NCBI GenBank assembly: GCA_030527795.1
Contig: JAUNAB010000009.1
Location: 1-64,000 of the forward strand
Length of the DNA stretch: 64,000 bases
From: Pasteurellaceae bacterium
GTDB lineage: Bacteria > Pseudomonadota > Gammaproteobacteria > Enterobacterales > Pasteurellaceae
Reading direction: 5' to 3'
The notes below the pieces were generated by a model. That model was not told the DNA's origin and did no database searches. It saw nothing but the letters and a program-made list of their open reading frames with translations. Positions 1 to 64,000 of the stretch are shown here, piece after piece. Positions within the stretch are counted from its first letter, which is position 1, and every line of letters starts with the position of its first letter. Position numbers and translations under genes: made by a program.

Positions 1-41
1 TAAATCAGGGAGACATTAAAGCAGAAATCAATGATAACAAT

Positions 42-87
42 AAAAACCGCGGTCAAAATTTTTAGGATTTTTTTGACCGCGTTTTTT
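42..87. terminator. Inverted uptake-sequence pair, terminator
   Basis: One repeat copy (AACCGCGGTCAAAA) faces a second, slightly shorter copy (TTTTGACCGCG) and a T run follows, giving a bidirectional intrinsic terminator. It would end whatever gene lies left of the window and insulate arcB. Confidence 0.8.
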
Positions 88-197
88 AGGAATTGATCTT
101 TTATTTCAAGCGATAGATGAGAATAAATAACGACTTTGATTGCTATTTTCTTTGGGTAGATTACAATGCATTTATTCATTTCTTTGTGGTTTTCTCT

Positions 198-2009
198 ATG
201 AAAAACTTACGCTATTTTGCACAACGTTATATTGATTGGTTAATCAAGTTAGGGCGACTTCGCTTTTCGTTGATGGGTTTCTTTATTCTTGCTGTATTGG
301 CACTTTGTACGCACATTGTTTTGAGCTATGCAATTACGGGAGAAATTCATTGGGAAAGCCTATTATATTCTATTATTTTTGGATTAATTTCTGCCCCTTT
401 TGTGATCTATTTCTTTACGTTATTAGTCGAGCAGCTTGAGTTATCGCGTCAGCATTTAGCGAAATCGGTAGTGGATTTGAAGCAAGAAATTGATGAACGT
501 ATTTTAGCTGAACAACGGCTAGCTCAGGCGGATCAAAATAAGATGCGATTGATGACAACGATTAGCCACGAGCTGCGTACGCCGTTGAATGGAATTGTGG
601 GATTAAGCCAAATTTTGCTTGATAGCCAGTTGGATGAACAGCAGCGGAATTATCTTAATACTATTCATATGAGTGTGATGTCATTGGGCTATATTTTTAA
701 TGATATTATTGATTTAGAAAAGATTGATGGGAAGAAGATTGCCCTTTATCAACGCGAAAGTGATTTCATCAGTTTGCTTGATGATATTCAAAATATTGGT
801 TGCTTAATGGCAGAGCAGAAAGGGTTAGGATTTAGTTTAAACCGCGGACAAAATTTGCCACATTTTTTACATTTGGATGGGACAAGATTAAGTCAAATTC
901 TGTGGAATTTGGTCAATAATGCGGTGAAGTTTACGCATCGTGGCAAGATAACGGTATCGGTGAATCGTTTATCAGAACAAGAATATGAGTTTGTGGTGCG
1001 AGATACAGGACAGGGCATTCCCACGGCAGATTTAGATAATATTTTTATGATGTATTATCAGGTTGCCGATAATCAGCATAAGCCCGCAGGCAGTGGGATT
1101 GGTTTGGCTATTTCAAGAAATATCGCTCAGTTAATGGGGGGGGATTTAACAGTACAAAGTGAATTGGGTCAAGGTTCTGCTTTTCGTTTGACGATTCGTG
1201 CGCAGGAAAGTGAGAAAAATACGTTACCACAAAATACTGTGCAGTCACTTGGGTTACATATTTTATTAGTAGAAGATATTGAGTTGAATGTTGTGGTTGC
1301 CAGATCATTATTAGAGAAATTGGGTTGCGAAGTTGATGTTGCGATGACAGGTAAGCAAGCATTTGAATTATTTGAGAAAAATACTTATGATTTGCTCTTA
1401 TTGGATATTCAATTACCCGATATGACGGGGTTTGATATTGCACGTCAGCTACGCCAAGATTATGAACAAGATAACTATGATTACTTGCCATTATTGGTGG
1501 CATTGACGGCAAATGTAATGCAAGATAAGGCTCAATATCAGGCTCAGGGTATGGATGATGTATTGCGAAAACCCTTGTCATTAGATGCGTTATCAGAATG
1601 TTTACAGCGTTATTTTTCCGTAGAAATTGGGACGACATTACAGCAGGAGAAGGAACAATCTGAGGTTTTAAATCTTAGCTTATTAAATGAGTTAGGCTCT
1701 ATGCTTGGCACGACATTTATTCAGCAAAATCTCGCGTTATTTGAGCAAACGATGCCCAGTTATATGGATGAGTTGCATCAGGCATTTCGCCAATTTAAGC
1801 AAGATGCGATTTATCGTCAACAAGTGGCAGACATTGCACATAAAATTAAAGGGGCAGCAGCGGCATTAGGGTTAAGCCAAATTCAACGGGTCGCCGAATT
1901 TGCTCAACACGAACAACAAGAAAATTGGGATAAGCATATTGCTGATTGGGTAACTCAGTTGTCGGATTGGCAAAGCAATGTGATTGCATTGAAACAGTGG
2001 CTAGATTAA
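198..2009 (+). CDS. arcB: Aerobic respiration control hybrid sensor kinase ArcB
   Basis: Membrane sensor kinase that phosphorylates ArcA under low oxygen. With the ATG at 198 it is 603 aa; an in-frame ATG at 117 would add 27 residues that look unlike ArcB, so 198 is preferred although neither has a clear Shine-Dalgarno. Two membrane segments (about residues 20-45 and 55-80) are followed by a short coiled coil, a HisKA domain (SHELRTPLNG, phospho-His near 124), an ATPase domain (NNAVKF, DTGQGIP, GSGIGLAI), a receiver domain (LLLLDIQLPD, Asp near 403) and an HPt domain (AHKIKGAAAALG, His near 548). There is no PAS domain; E. coli ArcB is about 778 aa and has one, whereas Haemophilus ArcB is similarly short. 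A repeat copy lies inside at 841. Confidence 0.96.
   Translation: MKNLRYFAQRYIDWLIKLGRLRFSLMGFFILAVLALCTHIVLSYAITGEIHWESLLYSIIFGLISAPFVIYFFTLLVEQLELSRQHLAKSVVDLKQEIDERILAEQRLAQADQNKMRLMTTISHELRTPLNGIVGLSQILLDSQLDEQQRNYLNTIHMSVMSLGYIFNDIIDLEKIDGKKIALYQRESDFISLLDDIQNIGCLMAEQKGLGFSLNRGQNLPHFLHLDGTRLSQILWNLVNNAVKFTHRGKITVSVNRLSEQEYEFVVRDTGQGIPTADLDNIFMMYYQVADNQHKPAGSGIGLAISRNIAQLMGGDLTVQSELGQGSAFRLTIRAQESEKNTLPQNTVQSLGLHILLVEDIELNVVVARSLLEKLGCEVDVAMTGKQAFELFEKNTYDLLLLDIQLPDMTGFDIARQLRQDYEQDNYDYLPLLVALTANVMQDKAQYQAQGMDDVLRKPLSLDALSECLQRYFSVEIGTTLQQEKEQSEVLNLSLLNELGSMLGTTFIQQNLALFEQTMPSYMDELHQAFRQFKQDAIYRQQVADIAHKIKGAAAALGLSQIQRVAEFAQHEQQENWDKHIADWVTQLSDWQSNVIALKQWLD
841..856 (+). repeat. Uptake-sequence-like repeat inside arcB
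   Basis: AACCGCGGACAAAATT, one base from the commonest form; the coding sequence absorbs it between the HisKA and ATPase domains. Confidence 0.6.
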
Positions 2010-2010
2010 C

Positions 2011-2054
2011 AAAACCGCGGTCAAAAATTCTCTCGTTTTTTTGACCGCGGTTTA
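2011..2054. terminator. Convergent terminator between arcB and fur (inverted repeat copies)
   Basis: Two full copies of AACCGCGGTCAAAA face each other around a short loop, with A and T runs on the outside. It can terminate arcB on the plus strand and fur on the minus strand. Confidence 0.9.
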
Positions 2055-2086
2055 GGATAGAATCTCGGCGAGTACCGAGTAGAACG

Positions 2087-2524: not shown

Positions 2525-2545
2525 TTTTCTCTCCTTGCGCTTTGC

Positions 2546-3070: not shown

Positions 3071-3087
3071 GTAAAGTACCTGTGTTC

Positions 3088-4398: not shown

Positions 4399-5052
4399 AT
4401 GAAGATTATTGAAGTTGATGAAGAACTGTATCAATATATTGCTTGTCAAACGCAGTCAATTGGCGAGAGTGCGTCGGATATTTTACGCCGTTTATTGAAT
4501 TTACCTTCCATGGCGTTAGCTTTTCAGTCCCTTGAGTCGGTGAAACAGTCTGAAACCGCGGACAAAAAATCCAATGGATTTTCTGAGCAACAATCATCAT
4601 CGGCAAGCAAAAATACGACCGTGGTAAAATCGGTCGTAGAGCAGGAGACAAAAGAAACAAAACCTGAGCCTGTAAAAGTTGAGCAAAATGTGTCGCAAAT
4701 TAGCCAACAATTACATAATTTGCTCAATTCAACTCAATTTAACAATGAAAGTAAAACAGTTGTCCGTTTCCTAGCTATTTTAAGTGTGCTTTATCAAGCG
4801 AATACTCAGGCATTTGCTAAAGCGATTGAACAAGATGAAGTGCAAGGTCGTACACGAACCTATTTTGCACGTGATGAACAGACTTTACTTGCGACGGGCA
4901 ATCATACCAAACCGAAACCGATACCAAATAGCCCTTATTGGGTCATTACGAATAATAATTCAGGGCGTAAAATGTTAATGCTTGAACGCACAATGCAAGC
5001 AATGGCATTACCGAATGAATTGATTAGCCAAATCCGACCTTATATTAAATAA
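4399..5052 (+). CDS. seqA: Negative modulator of replication initiation SeqA
   Basis: SeqA binds hemimethylated GATC sites, sequesters oriC and organises new DNA behind the fork. It is 217 aa from the ATG at 4399, chosen over a TTG at 4393 because GAGAG is well spaced for the ATG. The N-terminal multimerisation helix (MKIIEVDEELYQYIA...SASDILRRLL, 1-35) and the C-terminal DNA-binding domain (QGRTRTYFARDEQTLLATG, SGRKMLMLERTM) are clear. The low-complexity linker between them (about 50-100) is longer than in E. coli SeqA (181 aa) and carries a repeat copy. menE follows after 1 bp. Confidence 0.96.
   Translation: MKIIEVDEELYQYIACQTQSIGESASDILRRLLNLPSMALAFQSLESVKQSETADKKSNGFSEQQSSSASKNTTVVKSVVEQETKETKPEPVKVEQNVSQISQQLHNLLNSTQFNNESKTVVRFLAILSVLYQANTQAFAKAIEQDEVQGRTRTYFARDEQTLLATGNHTKPKPIPNSPYWVITNNNSGRKMLMLERTMQAMALPNELISQIRPYIK
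4554..4570 (+). repeat. Uptake-sequence-like repeat in the seqA linker
   Basis: AACCGCGGACAAAAAAT encodes the TADKK peptide in the flexible linker between the two SeqA domains. Confidence 0.65.
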
Positions 5053-6397: not shown

Positions 6398-9300
6398 ATG
6401 AATAAATTATTGAGATTGATACTTTTATTGGGGGTAGTTTTAACTAGCCACCTTTCTTTAGCTGTAGATTTGCCCAATGAAAAGGATATTCAAGCACAAT
6501 TAGCTGCTGAGAAAAATGTCAAAACAGAGGATACCAAACAACAAGAAAAAGTGGCGAATTTGGAAGCTACTCTTGGTCTATTACAAGATATTGATAAGCA
6601 ACAAAAAGTGAATCAAGATCTGAAAGACACGATTGATAAATCAACACAGCAATTGGCACAGAGTAAAGCGAATATTGAGAAACTAAAAGCCCAAGCGAAT
6701 GCTCAAAAAACCGATTGGTCAAAACTTTCAGCTACGGAATTACAAGAACGTTTGGTGGATGTACAACAGCAGTTACAGCAGTTGCAAACTACATTGACCC
6801 CATTGAACGCCAAGCTCTCAGCACAAAAAAGTGCACCTGAACGTGCGCAAGCGGGTTTAACTGAAACTTTAAAACGTACGCAAGAAATTAATAATCAATT
6901 AACTGCGGAAGGTATTGATTCTGTATTAAAAACCAAATTAGAAACAGAACAGAATTTATTAACATTAAAAGATAGTTATAATCAGTTATTATTAAGTGGG
7001 AATGATGAGTTAACCGCACTTTATTCTAGTCAAGTTGATGAAAATACCTTAGAGCAACAACAATTACAAACTGAACAAAATGAATTGCAAGATGCGATTA
7101 ATCAACTGAATTTAGAAGAAACTAAGAAGCAAGTTGTACAAGCAACACAATCACAACAACAAAATAGTGCTGAAAATACTAATCCTATTATTGTGAGTGA
7201 ATTAGAATTTAATACCAAATTAACGGAAACATTATTACAACAAACAACTCAATTAAATACCTTATCAAATGATAATCTACGCATCAAAAGTATTTTAGAT
7301 AATTTACAACAAACGCAGCAGAATATTAATGAGCAAATTAGCTCATTACAAGGCACATTAGTTCTTTCACGAATTATTAATAAACAAAAACAAGCCTTGC
7401 CACAAGATAAGTTAATTAAAGGGCTATCCAAGCAAATTACGGATCTACGCGTTAAGTTATTTGATTTATCAGAACTGCGAGATAACTTATCGGATACCGC
7501 GGCGTATATTGCGAATTTAGAGAAAGATAATACGACGCAATTTACTGTTAATGAAAAAAATAAGCTCACCACAATTTCACAAGAACGTCAAAAAGTATTA
7601 AATGATTTAATTAAGCAATTAAATAGTCAACTCACGTTATCCATTAATATTGAATTAAATCAACAACAAGTTCAAACTATTAGTGATAATTTGCAAGCCA
7701 AATTACAACAACAGAGCTTTTGGGTAAGAAGCAATAATGTGATTGATTTAGAATGGGTGAAAAGCTTTCCCCAAGCAGCAATGCTACAAATTAGAGAATT
7801 AACTAAACGATTTAATTTTTCTAATTGGAAAGATAATGCCGTATGGGCAGGATTAATTGTTGCTTTTTTATTAAGTATAACCATTTTTATTCTTCGTCAG
7901 AAAGAAGCTATTAAAAATAAATTAACCGAGATAAATAATAAAATTAAAACGGTTAAAACAGATAGTTTATGGAATACGCCAATTGCTATTCTATTAACCA
8001 TTATTTTATGTTTACCGAGTACGTTAGTTTTTTTATCCGTCATTATTCTTATTACTTATATTTGCTTGCAAGATCCCACTGCAGTTTGGGCGTGGGGAGC
8101 GAAAATGGCAAGTTATTGGCTCTATTTCGCAATGATGTTGGCATTGCTTCGTCCTAATGGATTGGCGATTTGTCATTTTAAACTACCGCAAAAAAGTGCT
8201 GAAAATTTTAGACATACGCTAAAACATTCCGCTTGGATGATTGCATTGTTGCTCAATACGGATGTTTTATCTAACTTAGATATGGGCGTATCTTACGATG
8301 TCGTGGGCGAAGTGTTAACGATAGTGGTGCTGATCCTGATGTTGTTTGTGATTGGTCCTGAGTTTCGGCAGGCGATTTCTTTGCACCAAAATGCGACAGC
8401 AAAAGAACAAGGGCAGTCTTATTTATTAACGTTGGTGCGTATTGTTCTCGCACTGGCACCGATAGTACTTATTGTGCTGATCGTAATGGGTTACTATTAC
8501 ACATCATTGGTGCTCATCGATCATTTGGTCAATTCTTATTTTGCATTTACTACTTGGCTCATTGTGCGTCATTTTGTTTATCGTGAAATTGATGTATATG
8601 CACGCCGTTTAGCTGCACGTCGTTTGCAAGAAAAAAGAGCCGCGGTAGTGCAACAAAATGCCGAAACCGCGGATCAAAATTCGTCTATTTTTAGTGCGCA
8701 AGATGAAACGTTAGCCGTTGGCGAAGTGAAAAAACAAATTTCTCGTATTGCAGACTTTTTGTTGTGGATTGGTTTTTTTGCCTTATTTTATTTTGTGTGG
8801 TCAGATTTAATAACCGTAGCTTATTATTTAGATGGCGTTACGCTGTGGCAACAGACCATTACCACGGATAAAGGCACAGTGTTAGAGTCAGTCACTTTAC
8901 TTAATTTATTGATTGCATTCATTATTCTTGCTGTTTCTTATATTTTGGTTCGCAATATTGGTGCTTTATTAGAAGTGTTAATTTTCTCGCGAGTGAAACT
9001 ATCACAAGGCACGCCTTATACCTTAACCACGTTATTGAGTTATATCATTATTGCAATAGGATTAGCCAGTGCTTTTGCAACGCTTGGTGTATCTTGGGCG
9101 AAATTGCAATGGCTATTGACCGCATTATCCGTGGGGCTAGGTTTTGGTATGCAAGAAATCTTTGCAAATTTTGTGTCAGGTATTATTATCTTGTTTGAAC
9201 GCCCTGTGCGGATCGGTGATATGGTAACGATCAGTTCTTATACGGGAACCGTATCAAAAATTCGTATTCGCACCACAACCTTAGTTGATGCGGATAAAAA

Positions 9301-9752: not shown

Positions 9753-10832
9753 ATGGCAGGTAATAGCATTGGGCAACTTTTCCGCGTTACTACATTCGGT
9801 GAATCCCACGGCGTTGCATTAGGTTGCATTGTTGATGGCATGCCACCAAATATGAATTTATCAGAAGCGGATATTCAACCAGATTTAGATCGTCGTAAAC
9901 CTGGCACTTCGCGTTATACCACGCCACGACGTGAAGATGATGAAGTGCAGATTTTGTCAGGTGTCTTTGAAGGTAAAACAACGGGAACGAGTGTTGGATT
10001 GCTGATTAAAAATAGCGATCAGCGTTCGCAAGATTATGGCGATATTATGGATAAATATCGCCCAGGTCACGCAGATTATACCTATCAACAAAAATATGGT
10101 ATTCGTGATTATCGTGGTGGTGGTCGTTCATCGGCTCGTGAAACCGCAATGCGTGTTGCCGCGGGGGCAATTGCCAAAAAATATTTACGCGAGCAATTTG
10201 GCATTGAAGTCCGCGGTTTTTTAAGCCAAATCGGGCATATTAGCATTACACCACAGCCTATTGAGCAGATTGATTGGCAACAAGTCAATAGCAATCCATT
10301 TTTCTGTCCCGATCCTGTTGCGGTAGAACAATTTGATCAGCTCATTCGTGATTTGAAAAAAGAAGGCGATTCTATCGGGGCGAAGTTAACCGTTATTGCA
10401 GAAGGGGTTCCCGTGGGATTAGGCGAGCCTGTATTTGATCGCCTTGATGCAGATCTTGCTCACGCGTTGATGAGCATTAATGCTGTAAAAGGTGTTGAAA
10501 TTGGCGATGGATTCGCGGTTGTAGCGCAACGTGGTAGCCAGCACCGTGATGAAATGACACCTGATGGTTTTTTGTCTAATCATTCTGGAGGAATTTTAGG
10601 CGGAATTAGTTCGGGGCAACCGATTATTGCTACTATTGCATTGAAACCCACATCAAGTATTACGATACCAGGCAATTCGGTTAATATTCGCAATGAACCT
10701 GTGGAAGTCGTAACGAAAGGTCGTCATGATCCTTGTGTTGGGATTCGTGCAGTGCCGATTGCAGAAGCAATGATGGCAATTGTATTGCTCGATCATTTAT
10801 TACGCCACCGTGCGCAAAATGGGGCAAAATAA
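9753..10832 (+). CDS. aroC: Chorismate synthase AroC
   Basis: Converts EPSP to chorismate using reduced FMN, the last step of the shikimate pathway; chorismate also feeds menaquinone, whose menE lies upstream. At 359 aa it is full length, with GESHG near the N terminus, the Arg-rich [18 protein letters not shown] segment, [20 protein letters not shown] and [17 protein letters not shown] lies upstream of the ATG. It is the first gene of an aroC-mepA-yfcA-lpxM run, an order known from Haemophilus and partly shared with E. coli. Confidence 0.98.
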
Positions 10833-10897: not shown

Positions 10898-11752
10898 ATG
10901 ACAAAAAAATTAAAATTAACCCTATTTTTGACCGCGGTTTTGGCGGCAATGACCGCACAAGCGACGCCACAGCAATGGCAAGCGGTGAAAAAGCCGATTC
11001 CAGGAGCGCCACAACCTATAGGCACTTATTCCAACGGCTGTATTATTGGTGCACAGCCAATGCCGTTTAAAGGCGAAGGCTTTCAGGTTATTCGCATTAA
11101 TAAAAATCGCTATTATGGGCATCCCGATATGATTAATTACCTTGAACGTTTAGGTAAACGCGTAAAAGCAGCGGGTATGCCAACAATGTTAATTGGCGAT
11201 ATTGCAATGCCAGGTGGTGGGCGTTTTCTGACGGGACACGCGAGTCACCAAATGGGGCTAGATGCGGATATTTGGTTGCGAATGGGCGAAATGTCGGAAA
11301 GTGATGCGATTAATGCAGATGGTAAAGCCTTGCTAGTGGTGGATCGCCAAGCACAACGTGTTGATGATAATGTATGGAATAATAATCACTTAAATCTCAT
11401 TCGTTTAGCAGCGGAAGATAACCAAGTTGCGCGTATTTTTGTTAATCCTGCGATTAAGGTAAAACTTTGTCAAACAGCAACGGGCGATCGTAGTTGGTTG
11501 CATAAAATTCGCCCTTGGTTTGGGCACGATTCGCATTTTCATGTGCGTTTAGTTTGTCCGCAAGGGGCAAGTTATTGTGAAAATCAAGCACCTGTTCCAG
11601 CGGGCGAAGGTTGTGATGATGAATTGTATTCTTGGTTTGAACCACGCCATTCATCTGGCACGCCAACGGTCAAAAAAACAACGCTACCAGAGCCGTTTTT
11701 ATGTCAACAAGCGTTAAATTCACCTGATCGTTCACAATGGTTATCAGAATAA
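10898..11752 (+). CDS. mepA: Penicillin-insensitive murein endopeptidase MepA
   Basis: Periplasmic LAS-type metallopeptidase that cuts peptide cross-links in murein. A signal peptide (about 1-22, ending AQA) precedes a catalytic domain with zinc motifs GHASHQMGLDADIW and WFGHDSHFHVRL. At 284 aa it matches the family. AAGGTG lies before the ATG. A repeat copy in reverse orientation encodes LTAV within the signal peptide. It lies between aroC and yfcA. Confidence 0.96.
   Translation: MTKKLKLTLFLTAVLAAMTAQATPQQWQAVKKPIPGAPQPIGTYSNGCIIGAQPMPFKGEGFQVIRINKNRYYGHPDMINYLERLGKRVKAAGMPTMLIGDIAMPGGGRFLTGHASHQMGLDADIWLRMGEMSESDAINADGKALLVVDRQAQRVDDNVWNNNHLNLIRLAAEDNQVARIFVNPAIKVKLCQTATGDRSWLHKIRPWFGHDSHFHVRLVCPQGASYCENQAPVPAGEGCDDELYSWFEPRHSSGTPTVKKTTLPEPFLCQQALNSPDRSQWLSE
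10925..10942 (-). repeat. Uptake-sequence-like repeat in the mepA signal peptide
   Basis: Reverse-oriented copy (TTTTTGACCGCGGTTTTG on the plus strand) reading LTAV within the hydrophobic core, where such residues are tolerated. Confidence 0.6.
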
Positions 11753-11780
11753 CCGCGGTCAAAAAATGCGATGTTTTTTA
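11752..11780 (+). terminator. Single repeat copy with T run after mepA
   Basis: One AACCGCGGTCAAAAAAT copy overlaps the end of mepA and a T run follows at 11774, but there is no facing copy and pairing is weak. At best it attenuates transcription into yfcA. Confidence 0.35.
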
Positions 11781-13645: not shown

Positions 13646-13702
13646 ATGGGTCAACATAGGTGAAAAAACGCCTTATTTTTAGACCGCGGTTTTAGGACAA
13701 TT

Positions 13703-14279: not shown

Positions 14280-16328
14280 GTGAGTTACCAAGTTTTAGCA
14301 AGAAAATGGCGTCCTAAAACCTTTTCGGAGGTAGTGGGGCAAGAGCATATCTTGACGGCATTGGAAAATGGTTTAACTGAGAATCGGTTACATCACGCTT
14401 ATCTCTTTTCGGGTACCAGAGGTGTAGGCAAAACCTCAATCGCACGCTTATTCGCTAAAGGGCTAAATTGTGAAAAAGGCATTACTGCTGATCCTTGTGG
14501 ACAATGTGCACATTGCAAAGCGATTGAAGCAGGGAATTTTATTGATTTAATTGAAATTGATGCTGCTTCACGCACCAAGGTTGAAGATACTAGAGAATTA
14601 CTTGATAATGTGCAATACAAACCTGTTCAAGGCCGTTTTAAGGTATATTTGATTGATGAAGTACATATGCTATCGCGTCATTCATTTAATGCGTTATTAA
14701 AGACTTTAGAAGAACCGCCAGAATATGTGAAATTCTTGCTTGCAACCACGGATCCGCAAAAACTACCTGTTACGATTTTATCTCGTTGTTTGCAATTTCA
14801 CCTTAAAGCACTCGAACCGAGTCAAATTAGCCATCATTTAGCCAAGATTTTGACCGCGGAGAAGATTCCTTTTCAAGATGCTGCGTTAGATAAGATCGCT
14901 CAAGCGGCACAAGGCAGTATTCGGGATAGTTTAAGTTTAACAGATCAAGCTATTGCCTTATCTAATGGAAATGTTAATTTAGACATTGTGCGTACAATGT
15001 TAGGTCTATTAGATGATCAGCAACCCATTGATATTTTATATGCGTTACAACAAGGCGATGGCGAAAAATTAATGAACGTGGCGCAGGCTGTGGCTGATCG
15101 TGGTGCAGATTGGGATGAATTATTACGCGAAGTGGGCGAGAAGTTGCATCAAATTGCGATGTATCAGTTGCTGCCAGCAAAAAATGAAGAAAGCCCATTA
15201 ACCTTACTTGCACGTTATTTAAGCCCTGAAGATGTGCAATTGTTTTATCAAATTATTGTGATGGGGCGTAAGGAACTGGCTTTTGCACCGAACCCCCGTA
15301 TTGGTGCGGAAATGACCTTATTGCGTGCCTTAGCATTTTGTCCTAAACGAGTGGAACATTCAGATCATATTGGTGCTAAACCTATTTCTCAAGCGGAAAA
15401 AACCGCGGATCAAAAATCAAATGAAATAGTATCGGTATCATCAGAGTCAGTTGCATTGCCTTCTGTTGAACAGGTTTCTGTACAGCCTATTCCTGTCGTT
15501 ACGATGTCGGCATTAAATACCGAAGCGGATAATTCAGAGAGTTCACACGGTTTACGAGCCTTGGAACAAATGAAAAAATTGCGTGCGCAAACCGCGAATT
15601 TGCAAGCTGAAAAAAAAAAGTTAACTAGTGTTACTAATGAGAAAATTCAAACCATTCCCGTTGTATCTAGTCATAGTTCTACATCAAGCACGAATGAACC
15701 GACTCAATTCAAATCACAGTTGAATAGATTGGCATCTTCACTATCTGAGAATAGTGCATTATCGGATGACAATAAGGAAGATGACAGCGAAGAAAATAAA
15801 TCTGCGACAGACTATCGTTGGGAATGGTCAAATCCTGAATTAGATGAGCAAGAAACGGGGATTAGACCGTCTGAAATTAAGCAAGCCCTAGAAAAGCAGA
15901 CCCCAGAGCTATTAAATAAAATGGCAATGATTGCAAAACAACGAGATCCGTGGTCGCAATTAATTGGTGAAATGCAGTTAGATGATATTAAACTGGCTAA
16001 ACAAATTGCGTTAAATTCGTTGTTATTACGACAAGATGAGAGTTATGCTCAACTTGGATTGCGTTCGAGTCAAGCTCATTTATTGCGTGAAAATACGCTA
16101 AATTTGTTGCGTGAACGCTTTGCTGATTTCTTCCAACAGCCTGATTTTAGGATAGACATTGAGCTTAATGATGATAAAAATCACTTAACACCGAGGGAAA
16201 ATTTAGCCGAGATTTATCAAGAGCTTAGCCAACAAGCGAGTATTGATTTGCAACAAGATGAACAGCTAAAATTACTGCAAACGACCTTCAATGCAAAACT
16301 GAATTTAAAAAGCATTCGCCCCATTTAA
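14280..16328 (+). CDS. dnaX: DNA polymerase III subunits tau and gamma (DnaX)
   Basis: Clamp-loader ATPase; tau also bridges polymerase cores and DnaB. The 682-aa tau form starts at a GTG with AAGGAA upstream. Motifs: Walker A GTRGVGKTS (about 43-51), a zinc module (CEKG...CGQCAHC), Walker B LIDEVHMLS, the LLKTLEEPPE sensor and SRCLQFH. A long polar linker (about 360-520) leads to the C-terminal tau domain. An A10-G tract in the linker fits programmed -1 frameshifting (separate entry) that would end after residue 449, close in relative position to E. coli gamma (431 aa). A repeat copy lies in the linker. Confidence 0.97.
   Translation: MSYQVLARKWRPKTFSEVVGQEHILTALENGLTENRLHHAYLFSGTRGVGKTSIARLFAKGLNCEKGITADPCGQCAHCKAIEAGNFIDLIEIDAASRTKVEDTRELLDNVQYKPVQGRFKVYLIDEVHMLSRHSFNALLKTLEEPPEYVKFLLATTDPQKLPVTILSRCLQFHLKALEPSQISHHLAKILTAEKIPFQDAALDKIAQAAQGSIRDSLSLTDQAIALSNGNVNLDIVRTMLGLLDDQQPIDILYALQQGDGEKLMNVAQAVADRGADWDELLREVGEKLHQIAMYQLLPAKNEESPLTLLARYLSPEDVQLFYQIIVMGRKELAFAPNPRIGAEMTLLRALAFCPKRVEHSDHIGAKPISQAEKTADQKSNEIVSVSSESVALPSVEQVSVQPIPVVTMSALNTEADNSESSHGLRALEQMKKLRAQTANLQAEKKKLTSVTNEKIQTIPVVSSHSSTSSTNEPTQFKSQLNRLASSLSENSALSDDNKEDDSEENKSATDYRWEWSNPELDEQETGIRPSEIKQALEKQTPELLNKMAMIAKQRDPWSQLIGEMQLDDIKLAKQIALNSLLLRQDESYAQLGLRSSQAHLLRENTLNLLRERFADFFQQPDFRIDIELNDDKNHLTPRENLAEIYQELSQQASIDLQQDEQLKLLQTTFNAKLNLKSIRPI
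15401..15417 (+). repeat. Uptake-sequence-like repeat in the dnaX linker
   Basis: AACCGCGGATCAAAAAT encodes TADQK at the start of the polar linker, before the frameshift tract. Confidence 0.65.
15614..15620 (+). other. Programmed -1 frameshift site in dnaX
   Basis: The heptamer A AAA AAG is exactly in the zero frame, at the end of a run of ten A residues. After a -1 slip the ribosome reads GTT AAC and then TAG at 15626-15628, giving a protein of about 449 aa corresponding to gamma. No strong upstream Shine-Dalgarno-like stimulator or downstream stem was seen; with ten A residues RNA polymerase slippage could also contribute. The heptamer is the E. coli dnaX signal; use here is inferred. Confidence 0.75.
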
Positions 16329-18267: not shown

Positions 18268-18309
18268 AAACCGCGGTTAAAAAACGTGTGAATTTTCGAC
18301 CGCGGTTTA
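18268..18309. terminator. Convergent inverted repeat pair before sanA
   Basis: AACCGCGGTTAAAA faces TTTTCGACCGCGGTTT. The right arm overlaps the end of sanA, so it mainly serves as the sanA terminator on the minus strand. Confidence 0.8.
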
Positions 18310-21320: not shown

Positions 21321-21366
21321 AAAATCGCGGTCAAAAAAATGAATGAAATTTTGACCGCGGTTTTTG
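21321..21366. terminator. Convergent terminator, inverted repeat copies
   Basis: ATCGCGGTCAAAAAAAT (one mismatch) faces a perfect TTTTGACCGCGGTTTTT. It serves the Ni/Co transporter and prmB. Confidence 0.85.
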
Positions 21367-23440: not shown

Positions 23441-23486
23441 TTTTACCGCGGTCAAAAATTCAAGCGTTTTTTTGACCGCGGTTTTT
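23441..23486. terminator. Second terminator, inverted repeat copies
   Basis: Two complete facing copies of ACCGCGGTCAAAAA directly downstream of the ssrA terminator, separating it from sucA. Confidence 0.8.
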
Positions 23487-31077: not shown

Positions 31078-31111
31078 TAAAAACCGCGGTCAATAATGAC
31101 CGCGTTTTTTT
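31078..31111 (-). terminator. ulaD terminator (compact inverted repeat)
   Basis: AACCGCGGTCA and TGACCGCGTTT face each other across only a few bases, giving a tight hairpin at the end of the minus-strand ulaABCD operon. Confidence 0.85.
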
Positions 31112-38079: not shown

Positions 38080-38126
38080 AAAACCGCGGTCAAAAATTCG
38101 TTCGTTTTTTTGACCGCGGTTTTTTA
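38080..38126 (+). terminator. ulaF terminator (inverted repeat copies)
   Basis: Two complete facing copies with A and T runs after ulaF. Confidence 0.9.
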
Positions 38127-39635: not shown

Positions 39636-39679
39636 GAACCGCGGTCAAAATTTCATTCATCTTTGACCGCGGTTTTTTT
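39636..39679 (+). terminator. modC terminator (inverted repeat copies)
   Basis: AACCGCGGTCAAAATTT faces TTTGACCGCGGTTTTTTT. Confidence 0.9.
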
Positions 39680-44107: not shown

Positions 44108-44160
44108 ACCTAAAAACCGCGGTCTGAATTGACGTTGTTTTTTTATTAAGGAAAGTAAAT

Positions 44161-47031: not shown

Positions 47032-47075
47032 AAAAACCGCGGTCAAAAATTTAACCGTTTTTTAGACCGCGGTTT
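47032..47075 (-). terminator. mop terminator (inverted repeat copies)
   Basis: AAACCGCGGTCAAAAATTT faces TTTTTTAGACCGCGGTTT, ten bases from the mop stop on the minus strand. Confidence 0.85.
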
Positions 47076-51441: not shown

Positions 51442-51487
51442 AAAACCGCGGTCAAAAAACGCTTGAATTTTTGACCGCGGTTTTTCT
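51442..51487 (+). terminator. Terminator, inverted repeat copies
   Basis: Two complete facing copies separate the permease operon from recB. Confidence 0.9.
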
Positions 51488-51552: not shown

Positions 51553-54500
51553 ATGCCACATTCTTTTTCTAATCTTAATGCCGCGACAATGCCTTTAACA
51601 GGTTCAACGCTTATTGAGGCGTCTGCGGGAACGGGCAAGACGTTCACAATGTCATCACTTTATTTACGTTTATTATTACAAGCGGGCGAACAGGCTTTTC
51701 CACGACCATTGTCCGTTGAAAACATTTTATTAGTGACCTTTACCAAAGCTGCAACACAGGAATTAAAAGAGCGAATTATTAATAATATCCATTGGGCGCG
51801 TAAGCAACTTATTGATTATCAACAGAATTCAGATATTAAGGTATTCTTCAAGGAAAACAATGGCAATAACGCGATTTTAGCAGAGTTAGTATCTAATATT
51901 GATTTAGATACCGCCATTCAACGTTTAACTTGGGCAGAACAGAATATGGATTTAGCCGCAATTTATACTATTCATAGCTTCTGTCTACGAGCATTGCAAA
52001 AATATGCGTTCAATTCTGGGCTACCTTTTGAATTGACACTAGAAAGCGATCCGACGGAATTATATCAACGATTTGCACGCGAATATTGGCGTGAAACCTT
52101 TTATCCACAATCCTTTGACGTAGTACAGTTTGTACATCAGCATTTGACTGATCCTGATAAGGTTGTTAATAAAATATCGAGTTACTTGAAGGGAGATCCA
52201 TTAAAAATCAAGCAACCTTCGGCGTTGTTTACTTGTTCAAGTGATACTTTTTTGCAACAGCATCTTATTCCCCATCTTCAGCAAAAACGCCAGAAAATTC
52301 AACAATTAAAACAGCAATGGCGAGATAATGAAGATGAGATTCGTCAGTTATTTCACAATGAATTGACTAAGAAATATAAGAAAGGCGAAGCAAAGAGTCT
52401 AAATAGGAATTCATTTAAATCCAACCATGTACAAAATTGGTTGAATTTGTGTTCTGAATGGGCAAAAGATGAAAATGATCTCAATTTGCTAAAGATATTG
52501 GTTGCGCGTTTTTCGCAGCAACGTTTGCAAGATGAGCATTGTGAAGATAATGGTATTGCCTTGGAGCATCCCTTATTTAAACAAATTGATCTTGTTCATG
52601 CATTTTTGCTAAACAATGAAGACAGTATTTATATCAAGGCACTGCATTTTCATTATATTCAAGGTATTCGTGCCAAATTAGATGCTTATAAAGCCAATCA
52701 TACTCAACGTTATTTTGATGATTTTCTTATCGCATTATATCAAGTGTTGCAGGGAGAAAAAGGCGAAGCGTTAGCAGAGTTAATTCGTACACAATATCCT
52801 TTTGCAATGATTGATGAGTTTCAGGATACAGATAATCTTCAATATCAAATTTTTGCAAAAATTTATGCCCCAAATAATGCAAAAAATAGCGAGAAAATAG
52901 ACCGCGGTTTTGTGATGATTGGCGATCCAAAACAGGCGATTTATAAATTTCGTGGTGCAGATATTTTTACCTATCTCAACGCTTCACGAAATGTGGATCA
53001 CCGTTTTACGTTGCCAACTAATTACCGCTCGCAACCTGATTTAATTCAAGCAGTCAATGGGCTATTTCATTTTGAAAATGCCCCTTTTTTATATCAGGAT
53101 ATTCAATTTCGCCCAGTGCTAGCACCACAAGATAAAAAATCTTCTGAATTTTGGGTAAATAATCAAAAGCAAGCAGCCTTATTGGTTTATCAAGGAGATT
53201 TAGTAGATAAGCGACAATATGCACAAGTCTGTGCAAACAGTATTCAGCAATGGCTTGCTTATGCACAGCAATCTAAAGCGGGATTTATGAAAACTGAGCA
53301 AGAAATTGAGCCACTTAAACCCCAAAATATTGCTGTGCTAGTTCGTAGTTTTCGCGAAGCCAATCTGATCAAAGATGTGTTGCATGAGCGGGGAATCTCA
53401 TCGGTATATTTATCTGATAGTAGCAATGTGTTTGATTGTGCCGATGCACAAGATCTATTACGTATTTTACGGGCGTGTTTAAATCCCTTTAATGAACGTC
53501 ATATTTTAAATGCCTTGGCAAGTTCGCTCTTTGCATTGACTGCGGATCAAATTTTGCAAATTAAACAAGATGAGAAATTGTTAGATAGTTGGGTTAACCG
53601 TTTTGAATATTTGCAATCTGTTTGGCAGCAGCGTGGTGTGTTAGCTATGTTGTATGAATTGTTGTTGGGCTTAAATGTTCAATCGGAAAATGCTATTCAA
53701 AAACGTATTTTACCAGTACAAATTTTATCCATGCCGAATGGCGAACGGCGGTTTACTGATATTTTGCACCTTGCGGAATTATTGCAACAGGCAGAGCGTT
53801 TAAATGAAAGCGACGCTGCATTGGTGGCGTGGTTTGAACGCCAATTACAAGGTAGTAATGATGAACAAAGTCGTGTAGATGAACAGCAAATCCGCTTGGA
53901 AAGTGAACAAGACTTGGTGAAAATTGTCACCATTCATAAATCTAAAGGGTTGGAATATGATGTGGTGTGGTTACCCTTTATTGCTGAAACAGCGAAATTA
54001 CGTGAACAGAGCATTGCAACTTATTATGATGAGGAAGAGCAGGGCATTTATTGGGATATTGATAATCAGCATACTGAGCAAAGTGCACGCGAGAGTCTGG
54101 CGGAAGAAATGCGCTTATTGTATGTGGCATTAACGAGAGCCAAATATCAAGTGGCGATGTTACTCCCAACAGAGTTTAAAGGGGAATGGAATGCTCTTTA
54201 TTATGCGTTAACACAGGGTGAAATTGGGCAAAAAAAACAAAAGTTATCGTTGGATACACAAGACCTATTAGTAGCGTTGGCAGGGCGTATTGGCAATGAA
54301 AATATTCAGATTGAGATGGTTGAGGAAATTCCTTGTCACAAATTGCTTGAACAACATTGTGCTATTGAAACCAAAGTATTGGACTTTACGGGCAAAATTG
54401 AACGAGATTGGCAGTTAACTAGTTTTACCAGTTTAGTCAATAAACATCATTTTTTGACGGAGTTGTTGTCAGGTGCAGAAAATAGCCATACCGCGGATCA

Positions 54501-55302: not shown

Positions 55303-57256
55303 TGTATTATTGCAGCTAAAACAACAGAATGTAATCAGTAATGCCGATTATTATTTTGCAAAACTTATCGCAGATAAACAAACGCCGTTTAATTATGCTA
55401 AACCCGTGCAAGATTTAGCCGTTTTATTGGCTGCATTGTGCAATCACGCATTGCAACAGGGCAATAGCTGTTTATTTCTTTCTCAGATTGATTATTTTGG
55501 CTTAACTTACCGCACAGAATTTCACACTTATCTTGCTGAAATTAAACAGAAATTGCCTTCAGACGATCCTAACGAGTGGATAGCATTATTACAAAGCCAT
55601 ATTGCGTTTACTTTCAGCCCAACGGAGAAAATTGCCCCCTTAGTTTGGCAAGGACAAGCCCTGTATTTTTACCGCAGTTGGCAAGATGAAAAAGAGGTCG
55701 CCGTGTATTTTCTATCTCATCTTGATAGAGCAAAAACCGCGGTCAAAAATTCGTTTGAATTTTGTGGTGCCGAATTAAAAAAGCAAATTCAGTCTATTTT
55801 GGCACAATTGTTTCATCAAGATCCACAAAGTCAATGGCAAGAAATTGCGGTTGCAACCGCATTAGTTAAGCAATTTTGCTTGATTTCAGGCGGGCCAGGA
55901 ACAGGGAAAACTTTTACGGTAGCACGAATTTTGGTGGCATTACAACAACTTGCATTACAGCAACATCAGCAACCACTGCGAATTGCACTTGCCGCCCCAA
56001 CGGGGAAAGCAGCCGCACGCTTAACCGAAAGTATTGAGCGAGAGTTAACTCATTTAAACTTAGAGCAACCGTTAAAGGCAATAATTCCAACCCAAGCACA
56101 AACGCTTCATCGTTTACTTGGGCGTAAAATGTTTGACGATCGTTGCCGTTTTAATGCAAAAAATCCGTTGCCGATTGATTTATTAATCGTTGATGAAGCT
56201 TCAATGATTGATTTGGCGTTGATGACAAAATTGTTGCAAGCCCTGCATCCAGAAACTCGCGTAATTTTACTTGGCGATAAGGATCAGTTAGCTTCTGTTG
56301 AGTCAGGTTCGATCTTGAATGAATTAGGGCAATTTATTACGCAAGATTATCGCCCTGAATTTACCCAATATTTGAAGGATGTAACGGGGTATGAATTACC
56401 GTCAAATTCTGATGCCGATTTGATCCGCGATAATTTAGTCCACTTACAGCAAAGTCGGCGTTTTGGGCAGAATTCGGGTATCGGGCAGCTTGCTCGATCG
56501 GTAAATGAAATGGCGGTGCAAAAAAGTTGGCAATTATTCACTCAAAAGCAATATGCTGATATCCAACTTATTGAATTTATTGATAATCAAGAAAATGAAC
56601 TTGCTTTTCAAAAGCATTGTCTGCAACAAGTGTTATTGCAAGCGGTTGCAGGCTATACAGACTATTTAAATCAGATCAAATGCGTATTAAATGATAAAAA
56701 ATTGTTAGATGACGATGTGGTCGGTGAAATTTTCCAACGGTTTAATCAAGTACAGGTTTTAGCCTGTATTCGTTCGGGTTATTTGGGGGTTGAGCATTTA
56801 AATCAAGCGATAGCAGATTGTTTACGCGAAAAAGGCTTAGTGGATTTCAAACAAAGCCGTGATTGGTATATCGGTAAGCCCATTATGATTACACAAAATG
56901 ATAGTAATGTTGGGTTATTTAATGGCGATATTGGTTTATATTTGGGCGATAATCGTGTGTGGTTTGTCACGGGAAAAGGGTATAAAGCCGTGCCAATTAG
57001 CCGTATTCCGAATTATGAAGTTGCTTTTGCGATGACGGTGCATAAATCGCAAGGTTCTGAATTTGAACATTGTCTTTTTGTGCTGCCAACGCAATTTAGC
57101 CCTGTATTATCAAAAGAATTAATCTATACCGCCTTAACTCGGGCAAAGCTCAAATTAACCGTATTTACTACACAAAGCATTTGGAAAAAAGCGGTTAAAA
57201 CCCCAATTCAACGTCAAAGTGGATTAAAAAACTTATTAACTGATAAAAAAATGTAA
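55295..57256 (+). CDS. recD: RecBCD helicase subunit RecD
   Basis: 5'-3' helicase of RecBCD, 653 aa from the ATG at 55295 that overlaps the recB stop; a GGGAG ribosome site is 9 bp upstream. It has an N-terminal RecB-contact domain, Walker A SGGPGTGKTFTVARI (about 200), LIVDEASMIDLALM, LLGDKDQLASVESG and the late VAFAMTVHKSQGSEFEH and YTALTRAK. A repeat copy encodes TAVKN just before the helicase core. Confidence 0.97.
   Translation: MLNVLLQLKQQNVISNADYYFAKLIADKQTPFNYAKPVQDLAVLLAALCNHALQQGNSCLFLSQIDYFGLTYRTEFHTYLAEIKQKLPSDDPNEWIALLQSHIAFTFSPTEKIAPLVWQGQALYFYRSWQDEKEVAVYFLSHLDRAKTAVKNSFEFCGAELKKQIQSILAQLFHQDPQSQWQEIAVATALVKQFCLISGGPGTGKTFTVARILVALQQLALQQHQQPLRIALAAPTGKAAARLTESIERELTHLNLEQPLKAIIPTQAQTLHRLLGRKMFDDRCRFNAKNPLPIDLLIVDEASMIDLALMTKLLQALHPETRVILLGDKDQLASVESGSILNELGQFITQDYRPEFTQYLKDVTGYELPSNSDADLIRDNLVHLQQSRRFGQNSGIGQLARSVNEMAVQKSWQLFTQKQYADIQLIEFIDNQENELAFQKHCLQQVLLQAVAGYTDYLNQIKCVLNDKKLLDDDVVGEIFQRFNQVQVLACIRSGYLGVEHLNQAIADCLREKGLVDFKQSRDWYIGKPIMITQNDSNVGLFNGDIGLYLGDNRVWFVTGKGYKAVPISRIPNYEVAFAMTVHKSQGSEFEHCLFVLPTQFSPVLSKELIYTALTRAKLKLTVFTTQSIWKKAVKTPIQRQSGLKNLLTDKKM
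55732..55753 (+). repeat. Full uptake-sequence-like repeat in recD
   Basis: AAAACCGCGGTCAAAAATTCG, the best form of the repeat, reads KTAVKNS in the segment between the N-terminal and helicase domains. Confidence 0.8.
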
Positions 57257-58082: not shown

Positions 58083-58116
58083 AAAAACCGCGGTCAAATT
58101 TTTCCGCGGTTTTTTG
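58083..58116. terminator. Convergent bioD/sdaA terminator (compact inverted repeat)
   Basis: AAAAACCGCGGTCAAA faces TTTCCGCGGTTTTTT across a short loop. Confidence 0.88.
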
Positions 58117-60971: not shown

Positions 60972-61071
60972 TAATTTGTGATTAATTGGCGAGTAAACTA
61001 GCGATGGGTTTGATTCTGATGAAAGAGAAAAACCGCGGTCAAAAATTCATTTGTTTTTTTATAGGGAAATC

Positions 61072-61431: not shown

Positions 61432-61445
61432 TAAATAAAAGGCGA

Positions 61446-61787: not shown

Positions 61788-61802
61788 TATTATTCCCCAC
61801 TT

Positions 61803-61831
61803 GCTATACTTTCAAAGCGGTTATTATCTAA
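61803..61831 (-). promoter_or_regulatory. erpA promoter
   Basis: On the minus strand TTAGAT, 17 bp, TATAGC leads into erpA. Confidence 0.45.
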
Positions 61832-61858
61832 TAAGCGTAAGATGTGTTCAAGGATATT

Positions 61859-61874
61859 TTCACATAAGTGTGAA
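61859..61874. repeat. Inverted repeat in the erpA/map gap
   Basis: TTCACA-TAAG-TGTGAA, a perfect 6-bp inverted repeat between the divergent starts. It does not match an IscR, Fur or FNR site that I recognise. Confidence 0.5.
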
Positions 61875-61924
61875 TTAGTGTTATCATAATGCCTAAATTC
61901 AAGTCTACATTAAAGGGGAACATG

Positions 61925-62728: not shown

Positions 62729-62740
62729 CGCTAAATCACA

Positions 62741-62787
62741 AAAAACGCGGTCAAAAATTTAAACGTATTTTGACCGCGGTTTTTTTA
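62741..62787 (+). terminator. map terminator (inverted repeat copies)
   Basis: AAAACGCGGTCAAAAATTT (one C missing) faces TTTTGACCGCGGTTTTTTT. Confidence 0.88.
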
Positions 62788-62885
62788 TGCTCTCTCCTTA
62801 CACTCGAACAACGCCGTCAAGCAAAAGCACGTTCCAAATTGGCGGACTGGGATTGATTATTTTAGTTTCATTTCATCATAAAAAA

Positions 62886-62903
62886 GACTACAGTAGGACT
62901 ACA
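62886..62903. promoter_or_regulatory. Possible toxin-antitoxin operator
   Basis: GACTACA is repeated 11 bp apart and the first copy forms the palindrome CTACAGTAG. It sits 20 bp before the antitoxin ATG, where RelB/DinJ-type antitoxins bind their own promoter. Confidence 0.45.
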
Positions 62904-62922
62904 AACCAAAAGGGATATTATT

Positions 62923-63189
62923 ATGAGTGAAACCTATATTAGAGCAAGAGTTGATAACCAAATTAAGCAAGATGCAACCTTGGCATTACAGGCAATGGGA
63001 ATGACAATGTCTGAATTTTTGCGTATTGCGATTACGCGTGTTGCAAAAGAAAAAGCCATTCCATTTGATATACGTGTACCAAATGAAACAACCTTACAAG
63101 CTGTTCAAGAAGGGCGAGCGATTTTAGCCAAGGCACAACGCGGTTTTGATAATGCGGAAACGTTGTTTAATGAACTCGACAAAAACTAA
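62923..63189 (+). CDS. dinJ: RelB/DinJ-type antitoxin
   Basis: Antitoxin of 88 aa with an N-terminal ribbon-helix-helix: YIRARVDNQIKQDATLALQAMGMTMSEFLRIAITRVAKE. The C-terminal tail (about 60-88) should wrap and neutralise the toxin. AAAGGGA precedes the ATG. Its end overlaps the toxin start by 20 bp. It should repress its own promoter with the toxin. Confidence 0.9.
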   Translation: MSETYIRARVDNQIKQDATLALQAMGMTMSEFLRIAITRVAKEKAIPFDIRVPNETTLQAVQEGRAILAKAQRGFDNAETLFNELDKN

Positions 63190-63484
63190 ACGTGCAAATT
63201 TACCACGTCAGTCGTGGTTTACCAAAGCCTTTGAAAAAGATTGGCAACGCCTGAATAAATCGGGTCGCTATGATATGCACGCTTTGAAAAAGGTAATGCA
63301 ATTACTCATTGCAAATGATGAACCTTTACCAGCAGAATATGTTGATCACGAATTAAAAGGAAGTCTAGCAGGATCAAGAGAATGTCATATTGGGGGCGAC
63401 TTTTTGCTAATTTATCAACTTGATGAAACGAATAATGGCATTGTGTTTACCCGAACAGGCACACATTTCGAGCTTTTTAAATAA
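63170..63484 (+). CDS. yafQ: YafQ-type RelE-family mRNA interferase toxin
   Basis: Ribosome-dependent mRNA endonuclease of 104 aa from the ATG at 63170; an upstream in-frame ATG at 63146 is deeper in the antitoxin. The family catalytic residues of E. coli YafQ are all present: His in DHELKG (60), His and Asp in CHIGGD (73, 77) and His in RTGTHFELF (99). So it should be active. It sits between map and phage-like sequence. Confidence 0.9.
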   Translation: MNSTKTKRANLPRQSWFTKAFEKDWQRLNKSGRYDMHALKKVMQLLIANDEPLPAEYVDHELKGSLAGSRECHIGGDFLLIYQLDETNNGIVFTRTGTHFELFK

Positions 63485-63489
63485 TAAAT

Positions 63490-63513
63490 AAACCGCCACG
63501 ATGGCGGTTTTTT
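63490..63513 (+). terminator. Toxin-antitoxin terminator
   Basis: AACCGCCA/TGGCGGTT stem with a 3-nt loop and six T residues. Confidence 0.9.
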
Positions 63514-63600
63514 GTTATCCCCCTTTTCACATCGCCATGCACTCGCTATCTTTTTTCTTATTCCACACAATAGTCATACCTTTTCTTTTACCTGATTGCT

Positions 63601-64000
63601 ATGACTGCCGAATTAAACCGTCAAATTGAAAACCTTATCCGCTTTGGCACGATTGCCGAAGTGGATCATCAACAGCGTCGTGCACGTGTGCAATCAGGCA
63701 AGATTTTAACCGATTGGCTACCTTGGGTCGCTTTTCGTGCTGGCACAACTAAAATTTGGTCGCCTGTCAATGTGGGCGAACAGTGTCTAATTTTGGCAGC
63801 CAATGGCGAGCTAACGACCGCGGTCATTTTAAGCGCCATTTTTTCTCTTGCTCACGACACCCCGAGCTATTCCCCTGACGAACACGTCATTGAATTTGCT
63901 GACGGGGCAAAAATTCTCTACAACCAAGCAAGTTCAGCATTGAATGTGACAGGCATTAAAACGGCTCACATTGTGGCAAGCGAGTCAGTGACCGCCGAAA
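63601..64000 (+). CDS. Phage baseplate assembly protein V (P2 gpV-like), partial
   Basis: Open from the ATG at 63601 to the window end (133 codons, no stop). It matches the phage P2 gpV pattern: IENLIRFGTIAEVDHQQRRARVQSG near the N terminus, then TDWLPWVAFRAG, VGEQCLILAANGEL, and the FADGAKILYNQASSALNVTGIKTAHI block resembling P2 gpV FPDGAVIEYEPETSALTV. It forms the baseplate spike in contractile tails. A palindromic CCGCGG repeat copy at 63815 lies inside. Nothing phage-like is complete upstream, so it may be the edge of a prophage, a tail-like particle or a remnant. Confidence 0.88.
   Translation, partial: MTAELNRQIENLIRFGTIAEVDHQQRRARVQSGKILTDWLPWVAFRAGTTKIWSPVNVGEQCLILAANGELTTAVILSAIFSLAHDTPSYSPDEHVIEFADGAKILYNQASSALNVTGIKTAHIVASESVTAE

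Follow-up and report, generated by a model that had tools for sequence, protein, structure and literature searches.

A palindromic CCGCGG core as a probable third dialect of the Pasteurellaceae uptake signal sequence

The 64,000-nucleotide stretch analyzed here (the window; positions 1 to 64,000 of contig JAUNAB010000009.1) and the Pasteurellaceae genome that carries it (G000; 1,945,414 bases in 24 contigs, 99.99% complete, 0.03% contamination) are dense in a 9-base core, AACCGCGGT. The 802 copies in this genome probably constitute an uptake signal (we put the probability at about 0.83), that is, a third dialect of the uptake signal sequence (USS), derived from the Hin dialect by a GT-to-CC change at existing sites; DNA tagged with the CC-type core would then be preferred in uptake. 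Judged by sequence, the finding is a new dialect of a known signal, each of the sequence features of a USS that we tested for being present, and its novelty follows from comparison with the prior literature (cited throughout from excerpts), which has only the Hin type (core AAGTGCGGT; Haemophilus, Pasteurella, and Aggregatibacter) and the Apl type (core ACAAGCGGT; Actinobacillus and Mannheimia). A third dialect had been proposed from the window alone (the original prediction), and the proposal is supported by the genome-wide replacement of the known cores, an architecture of Hin type, the occurrence of both inverted pairs and intragenic copies, the position of G000 in the Hin clade, and the coincidence of its sites with Hin cores in a relative. 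In the following, AACC, AAGT, AACT, and AAGC denote the letters that precede GCGGT.

Abundance of the CC-type core

The window (G+C, 38.7%) contains 52 copies of the hexamer CCGCGG, as opposed to the approximately 3.4 copies expected from base composition, in good agreement with the original estimate of about 50 copies and four by chance; an order-3 Markov model expects about 11, although the model is itself inflated by the motif. There are 27 copies of AACCGCGGT in the window (0.33 in dinucleotide shuffles) and nine of the variant core AACCGCGGA (0.28 expected). Across the 1.95 Mb of G000, the 802 copies of AACCGCGGT comprise 398 forward and 404 reverse, versus 2 and 3 for the reversed pattern that serves as the control for genome-wide counts: as in known USSs, a 9-mer core is repeated hundreds of times genome-wide, far over chance (802 versus 5). 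Neither known core is enriched, as it would be in a genome of Hin or Apl type: AAGTGCGGT has 48 copies (21 + 27; control, 56 = 27 + 29) and ACAAGCGGT has 37 (19 + 18; control, 36 = 11 + 25). The genome-wide count that had been suggested as a check thus favors the CC-type core over a Hin core at control level, the reverse of the pattern that would have refuted the prediction. Within the window, AAGTGCGGT is not absent, as had been stated, but present at chance level (one copy, at 7013-7021 on the minus strand), and AGTGCGGTC and ACAAGCGGT each occur once, as reported, at 28046 and 48862 rather than at 28048 and 48863.

The dialect appears confined to G000 at this density. The 140 genomes of the family examined span 43 genera; G000 has 525 copies of AACCGCGGTCAAA, none of the other 139 has more than 4, and only 11 of them contain it at all. 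The 9-mer AACCGCGGT by itself was counted in 36 further family genomes, with 80 copies in the relative G034 (control, 0) and no more than 47 in any of the rest. Pattern scans of viral contigs for the CC motif returned 0 matches, and a search of plasmids with a 201-base stretch returned none.

Anatomy of the motif

Anatomy and placement were analyzed in a 379-kb sample of G000 (the window plus 16 stretches), which holds 165 copies, 164 of which were profiled (one site lies too close to the end of a stretch). The extended motif is approximately aAAAACCGCGGTCAAAAATTnnnnnGTTTTTT, in which the inner core GCGG is followed by two AT tracts, about one and about two helical turns downstream, and the profile of the 164 sites is approximately aAAAACCGCGGTCAAAAATTca.ttGTTTTTT. 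These are the components of a USS, namely, an inner core GCGG (here within AACC-GCGG-T) and two AT-rich segments 3' of the core. Both tracts are in register with those in the AAGTGCGGT profiles of three Hin-type relatives (G034, n = 366; G018, n = 54; G014, n = 52), which bears out the earlier description of a Hin-type flank layout with only GT changed to CC. Flanks and core behave as one motif, because a seed built from the flank alone (CAAAAATT, six bases, TTTTT) retrieves AACC before GCGG in 30 of 35 instances.

As had also been noted, the GT-to-CC change renders the core, ACCGCGGT, palindromic: each strand carries GCGG, leaving the flank, which lies on one side only, to set orientation. 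A receptor might read such a core on whichever strand it meets, taking the direction from the AT tracts. The change leaves GCGG intact, the part of the motif described as crucial in uptake experiments with degenerate USSs in H. influenzae (PMC7811141). The last core position is loose, as judged by the similarity between the flanks of AACCGCGGA (48 profiled) and those of AACCGCGGT; the final T is described as weaker in the USSs of H. influenzae and H. somnus (Redfield et al., PMC1626085). Half-changed forms are rare in the sample, with AACTGCGGTC present once and AAGCGCGGTC not at all versus 138 copies of AACCGCGGTC, and with AACT preceding GCGGT twice and AAGC once.

Probable descent from Hin-type sites

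In a maximum-likelihood tree of RecC (a single gene; 43 rows, three of them outgroup), G000 is nested within the main Hin clade on starred branches (100/97, also 96/93). It belongs to subclades of seven (96/92) and six (97/95) members, both including G018, G014, G089, G126, and G034, with G023 additionally in the larger; G014 is its possible sister (87/70). Apl genomes form one clade (100/100), beside which two Hin-type genomes, G035 and G008, fall outside the main Hin clade (94/86, unstarred). Among the matches listed, the nearest named RecC relatives of G000 are Pasteurellaceae.

The strongest single test of descent is the coincidence of sites at orthologous codons. Reciprocal best-hit orthologs between the sampled G000 sequence and 800 kb of G034 (126 pairs) yielded 53 intragenic CC sites with an aligned G034 codon: 17 face AAGTGCGGT (≥8/9 letters; 14 exact), compared with 3/2117 for neighboring codons in the same frame. 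As such, roughly one in three CC copies open to this comparison sits where G034 has a Hin core or a one-letter variant of it. Consecutive 400-kb stretches of G034 agree (10/36 versus 2/1455 in the control, and 7/17 versus 1/662); the Fisher p value of the coincidence, 2.5e-26, is a guide only, since control positions overlap within genes. In the reverse direction, 17 of 80 Hin sites in G034 face a CC core in G000 (9 exact; control, 2/3125) and one faces a Hin core, where comparisons between Hin-type genomes give 14/22 (G014 to G034), 5/21 (G034 to G018), and 5/9 (G018 to G034).

Several counts weigh against descent at existing sites. In G034, no Hin core stands opposite most of the aligned intragenic sites (36/53); three of the 17 matches are one-letter forms (two AACT, one AAGC) no closer to the Hin core than to the CC core; and 4/53 face a CC-like core in G034, none of them exact and three of them those same one-letter forms. 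In G018, only 1/14 sites faces a Hin core; the 2/14 that face a CC-like core share a single gene, 94% identical, in which protein constraint can explain the match; and a Hin core is faced by 0/2 sites in G014 and by 0/3 in the Apl-type genome G010. A previous intragenic count (24 exact of 72) gave undue weight to one comQ site represented by many species and is superseded by the reciprocal-best-hit counts. Cores downstream of orthologs are present in both genomes in 14 pairs, as CC only in 21, as Hin only in 22, and in neither in 103; these numbers lean the expected way but were left unused, because ortholog pairs are not independent.

In G034, AACTGCGGT exists as a second form beside AAGTGCGGT, making this a mixed dialect. 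Its 800 kb (loci L204-L223 and L256-L275) contain 716 copies of AAGTGCGGT and 121 of AACTGCGGT, 43 of which carry both AT tracts (background, 2.1% of other GCGGT contexts), along with 11 copies of AAGCGCGGT (7 with tracts) and 19 of AACCGCGGT (5 with tracts). Elsewhere, AACT and AAGT number 3 versus 174 in 12 named loci taken as Hin type and 0 versus 127 in 22 other Hin loci, two sets that may share species. A path from GT through CT to CC is plausible, because the AACT form in G034 bears the tracts and one-step forms occur at coinciding sites. Speaking against such a path, G018 (loci L224-L233) has 8 AACT, all of them without tracts, beside 54 AAGT; the G014 sample has 0 and 53.

ComN as candidate receptor

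The minor pilin ComN (PpdA) has been proposed as the USS receptor, which is itself a prediction (Helsem et al. 2025, PMC12616744). In the models of that study, dialect-specific positions lie above the C-terminal sheet, and DNA is contacted by a C-terminal loop and an Arg, identified as R131 of H. influenzae Rd in the beta5-beta6 loop (PMC12616744). The foremost candidate for a protein that reads the new dialect in G000 is ComN, because the invariant Arg has been lost and because this ComN is the most diverged of its clade. A ComN-like open reading frame (ORF) lies beside recC in 37/39 relatives, no such ORF being found there in G098 or the Apl-type G021. The Arg of the GxR[ND]T motif is conserved in 23/23 aligned Hin-type ComNs and, at the same position, in 67/71 ComN-like database proteins; G000 has Gln126, a position equated with R131 by the motif, and the three other rows without Arg look broken or fused at the loop (P0069, gap; P0070, Gln; P0071, Ser). 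Furthermore, Pro116 (70/71 ComN-like proteins) is replaced by Trp in G000, and Trp62 (69/71) by Phe. In a comparison of ComN, RecC, and ComO identities from which the Hin-type G035 and G008 were dropped (both outside the main Hin clade), the mean identity of G000 ComN to the 21 other ComNs of the main Hin clade is 0.376, the lowest of 22 (next, 0.407; median of the others, 0.532), and its number of broken invariants (4/25) is the highest of 22. A single-sequence search with ComN returned one cluster, 99% identical; a Foldseek search of the ComN model against the PDB gave minor pilins and pseudopilins as best matches (EpsH, 1.7e-3; FimU, 4.1e-3), with none at ≤0.001.

An alternative that we consider unlikely, and whose odds overlap those of the preferred explanation, is that the CC core is a third USS dialect with a receptor other than ComN, the changes in ComN reflecting drift or pilus assembly. 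It draws on the predicted status of ComN as receptor (PMC12616744) and on a number of observations that count against a role for ComN: the link rests on one lineage; ComO of G000 is diverged too (0.357; median, 0.488); the RecC of G000 is also the lowest of 22, if barely (0.490; next, 0.495; median, 0.52); G023 has a diverged ComN and a diverged ComO without a change from the Hin dialect; G023 and G032 break 3/24 ComN invariants yet keep that dialect, so that the lead of G000 is narrow; and model confidence in the loop with Gln126 is modest (AlphaFold2 mean predicted local distance difference test [pLDDT] of 74 for residues 121-130; 88.4 overall). What favors ComN over another receptor is that the invariant Arg is lost in the modeled DNA-contact loop, and in the sole lineage with changed dialect-specific bases.

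Competence machinery

A fossil dialect, that is, a former uptake signal whose copies are relics left after the loss of competence, is an alternative that we regard as improbable. In its favor, Redfield et al. report competence-gene defects in three of eight species that they compared (PMC1626085). The com, pil, rec2, and sxy genes examined are open, the consensus is sharp, and the half-changed forms counted above are nearly gone. Genes comNOPQ-recC stand in order with open frames, and there are open frames without internal stops for the ComE secretin (444 amino acids [aa]), Rec2/ComEC (804 aa), PilB (510 aa), and Sxy/TfoX (221 aa). The com locus has frames in the order comA-comE, the last two matching PilP and secretin and comA-C, which have no Pfam match, being named by position; the pil locus (pilABCD), with matches to pilin, PilB, PilC, and prepilin peptidase, is likewise without internal stops. 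These genes were located by family searches (an earlier regular-expression search of sampled ORFs gave two matches, one of them ComN). Also in favor of a fossil, and against a working signal, comF was not found beside comE, in a survey that covered part of the competence gene set (comN-Q, comA-E, pilABCD, rec2, and sxy). The gene that follows comE in G000 is that of MreB (L164:7270-9959); in H. influenzae, this position is occupied by comF.

A promoter element, TTTTnYGATCnnnATTCCAA, lies upstream of comA, pilA, and comN, and these are its only three matches in 421 kb. It resembles the CRP-S sites known from H. influenzae, with an unusual right half. Its weight is lessened by the pattern having been drawn by eye from those same promoters and then slightly widened for the search, and by the site upstream of rec2, which does not match it.

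Placement in genes, between genes, and in inverted pairs

Of the 165 sampled copies, 43 are inside called ORFs and 122 outside, a coding share that is approximate, because ORFs (≥80 aa) came from a simple script. All 29 inverted pairs (58 copies; 29 to 32 bases from start to start) lie outside called ORFs, and the three that were folded form stable predicted terminator-like hairpins. Such a distribution could indicate a terminator or structural repeat family unrelated to uptake, whose inverted copies terminate transcription and have multiplied in that capacity, but this explanation is quite improbable on other evidence. Known uptake sequences, too, commonly form inverted pairs that serve as terminators (PMC12616744, PMC1852404, PMC13020248). 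The majority of profiled copies (106/164) are unpaired, and they keep their asymmetric AT tracts both in ORFs (43, where the tracts are weaker) and between them (63). Coding sequence contains 76 copies of AACCGCGG[TA], an approximately ten-fold excess over 30 synonymous-codon shuffles (mean, 7.8; maximum, 16), and the coincidence with Hin cores at orthologous codons likewise weighs against a terminator family. Together, the coding excess and the tract-bearing single copies speak against a role in termination only and against an artefact of codon usage.

The copies had been predicted to sit in terminators and in genes just as uptake sequences do. Genic copies and inverted pairs both exist, with termination itself predicted, but the likeness is incomplete: the share within ORFs (43/165) makes placement in G000 more intergenic than in G034 (232/367), with G018 at 26/54, a difference that counts against the preferred explanation. 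A known restriction enzyme recognizes CCGCGG, but it is scarcely credible that the hexamer is kept as a restriction-modification or nucleoid protein site: restriction sites are usually depleted, not enriched, and such a role has no need for asymmetric AT tracts, the 3' TCAAA, or coincidence with the Hin cores of a relative.

Possible history of the dialect

If the CC-type core is indeed an uptake signal, then during competence a type IV pilus carrying a sequence-reading minor pilin, most likely ComN, would bind it, the AT tracts would help the DNA to kink, and the pilus would draw the DNA through the ComE secretin, such that DNA from Hin-type relatives would be taken up poorly. Historically, a Hin-type ancestor may have passed through a period of tolerance in which AACT served as a second form (G034 shows a mixture of this kind), followed by a change in the receptor and by replacement throughout the genome; the latter is proposed to have occurred because DNA with the preferred form was taken up and recombined more often. 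In its most specific version, to which we give somewhat less than an even chance, the palindromic-core dialect replaced the Hin dialect in one lineage, site by site, via GT, CT, and CC, with changes to the ComN loop (Arg to Gln126 and Pro to Trp116) as the driving force and genetic isolation of the species from its Hin neighbors as the result; G000 and G034 would then represent the end and the middle of the switch.

Relation to known uptake sequences

The CC dialect shares with the Hin USS the GCGG, the leading A run, the final T, the spacing of AT tracts, the terminator-like pairs, copy numbers in the hundreds, and, in part, identical positions in genes. It differs in core positions 3 and 4 (CC rather than GT), in the base after the core (mostly C in G000, as in TCAAAAAT; G in G034; no clear base in G014), and in its palindromic core, since USSs and the DNA uptake sequences (DUS) of Neisseriaceae are described as nonpalindromic (PMC3388099). 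With the Apl USS it has in common the inner core GCGGT and the AT tracts; the outer core is CAA in Apl and ACC in G000, and the downstream TTTTGCAAAT of Apl is absent from G000. Neisseriaceae DUS are comparable in having clade-specific outer letters, a fixed inner core, a minor pilin receptor (ComP), and a species barrier (PMC3630211, PMC12616744), whereas motif and family are unrelated and DUS, of which eight dialects are counted, are described as continuous and without AT tracts (PMC3630211).

In the excerpts cited, USS types separate only two major subclades (Redfield et al. 2006, PMC1626085), all 150 genomes analyzed are enriched for Hin or Apl (Helsem et al. 2025, PMC12616744), and uptake specificity is taken as ancestral, with two dialects in the family (PMC1626085, PMC12616744). 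The excerpts on Pasteurellaceae uptake name no CCGCGG uptake sequence, although a CC form may be among the six motifs in a figure, or in the repository, of a 2026 survey of frequent k-mers in Pasteurellaceae terminators (PMC13020248). Among 40 listed titles, of 171 papers that contain one of the letter strings, none concerns uptake in this family; CCGCGG strings in two other papers (PMC3388099, PMC8616859) belong to primer lists and are not uptake sequences. A third dialect inside one subclade, together with a mixed dialect in a relative, would indicate that the recognition signal can change, offering a natural test for the predicted USS receptor and opening the evolution of a barrier between self and nonself DNA to experiment. 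If real, the CC dialect would limit DNA exchange with related species.

Sites in the window

The window is ordinary chromosome, with NCBIfam matches that include dnaX, mepA, mscK, sucA, recB, and recD. Its sites, and the promoter elements found elsewhere in G000, are listed in Table 1.

Table 1. Cores and inverted pairs in the window, with promoter elements of competence genes (locus:position)
Feature	Position	Strand	Evidence
CC core AACCGCGGT, single, with AT tracts	45..53	+	core count, CCGCGG count
Variant core AACCGCGGA	840..848	+	
Inverted core pair (2013+, 2044-)	2013..2052	.	predicted terminator hairpin, -25.4 kcal/mol
Variant core AACCGCGGA	4554..4562	+	
Variant core AACCGCGGA	8665..8673	+	
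Variant core AACCGCGGA	10210..10218	-	
Core in mepA-like gene	10931..10939	-	G034 orthologous codons = AAGTGCGGT
Core AACCGCGGT over end of ORF 10898-11752	11751..11759	+	
Core AACCGCGGT, intergenic	13683..13691	-	
Variant core AACCGCGGA in dnaX-like gene	15401..15409	+	G034 orthologous codons = AAGTGCGGT
Inverted pair (18269+/18270- overlapping palindrome, 18299-)	18269..18307	.	
Core AACCGCGGT	21354..21362	-	
Inverted pair: TACCGCGGTC (CCGCGG at 23446) and AACCGCGGT at 23475-	23444..23483	.	
Core AACCGCGGT	26913..26921	+	
Core AACCGCGGT	31082..31090	+	
Inverted pair (38082+, 38113-)	38082..38121	.	predicted terminator hairpin, -25.9 kcal/mol
Inverted pair (39637+, 39666-)	39637..39674	.	predicted terminator hairpin, -23.5 kcal/mol
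Variant core AACCGCGGA	40022..40030	+	
Variant core AACCGCGGA	41549..41557	-	
Variant core AACCGCGGA	42898..42906	+	
Core AACCGCGGT	44115..44123	+	
Inverted pair (47035+, 47066-)	47035..47074	.	
Inverted pair (51444+, 51474-)	51444..51482	.	
Core AACCGCGGT in recB-like gene	52901..52909	-	
Core in recD-like gene	55735..55743	+	G034 orthologous codons = AAGTGCGGT
Short-spaced pair: AACCGCGGT 58086+, AACCGCGGA 58103-	58086..58111	.	
Core AACCGCGGT	61031..61039	+	
Core AACCGCGGT	62773..62781	-	
Promoter element, comN	L010:16210	-	
Promoter element, comA	L164:4851	+	
Promoter element, pilA	L242:3720	+	

Other variants among relatives

G018 has AAGAGCGGT as a second core form (19 copies beside 54 AAGT), 13/19 of them with both AT tracts; the same form is minor in the two sets of Hin loci described above (16 versus 174 and 15 versus 127). 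In six other genomes from three genera (G011, G024, and G098-G101), neither the Hin nor the Apl core is strong, although G101 has 114 copies of AAGTGCGGT (control, 50). A CC-type dialect shared by G011, G024, G098, and G101 was considered and rejected, as the most frequent k-mers listed for their 100-kb samples include no CCGCGG motif. G024 and G098-G101, the latter being one genus, are candidates for lost uptake specificity. G011, a member of the Hin clade with a very divergent ComN (39 bits), contains 69 copies of ACGCCCCAATTTT (control, 0; loci L026-L030, L244, L248, and L251-L255), a string present at most twice in each of 13 other genomes checked; its copies occur singly or in inverted pairs approximately 27 to 29 bases apart, often followed by AT-rich sequence, and possibly represent a further, unrelated uptake-like repeat.

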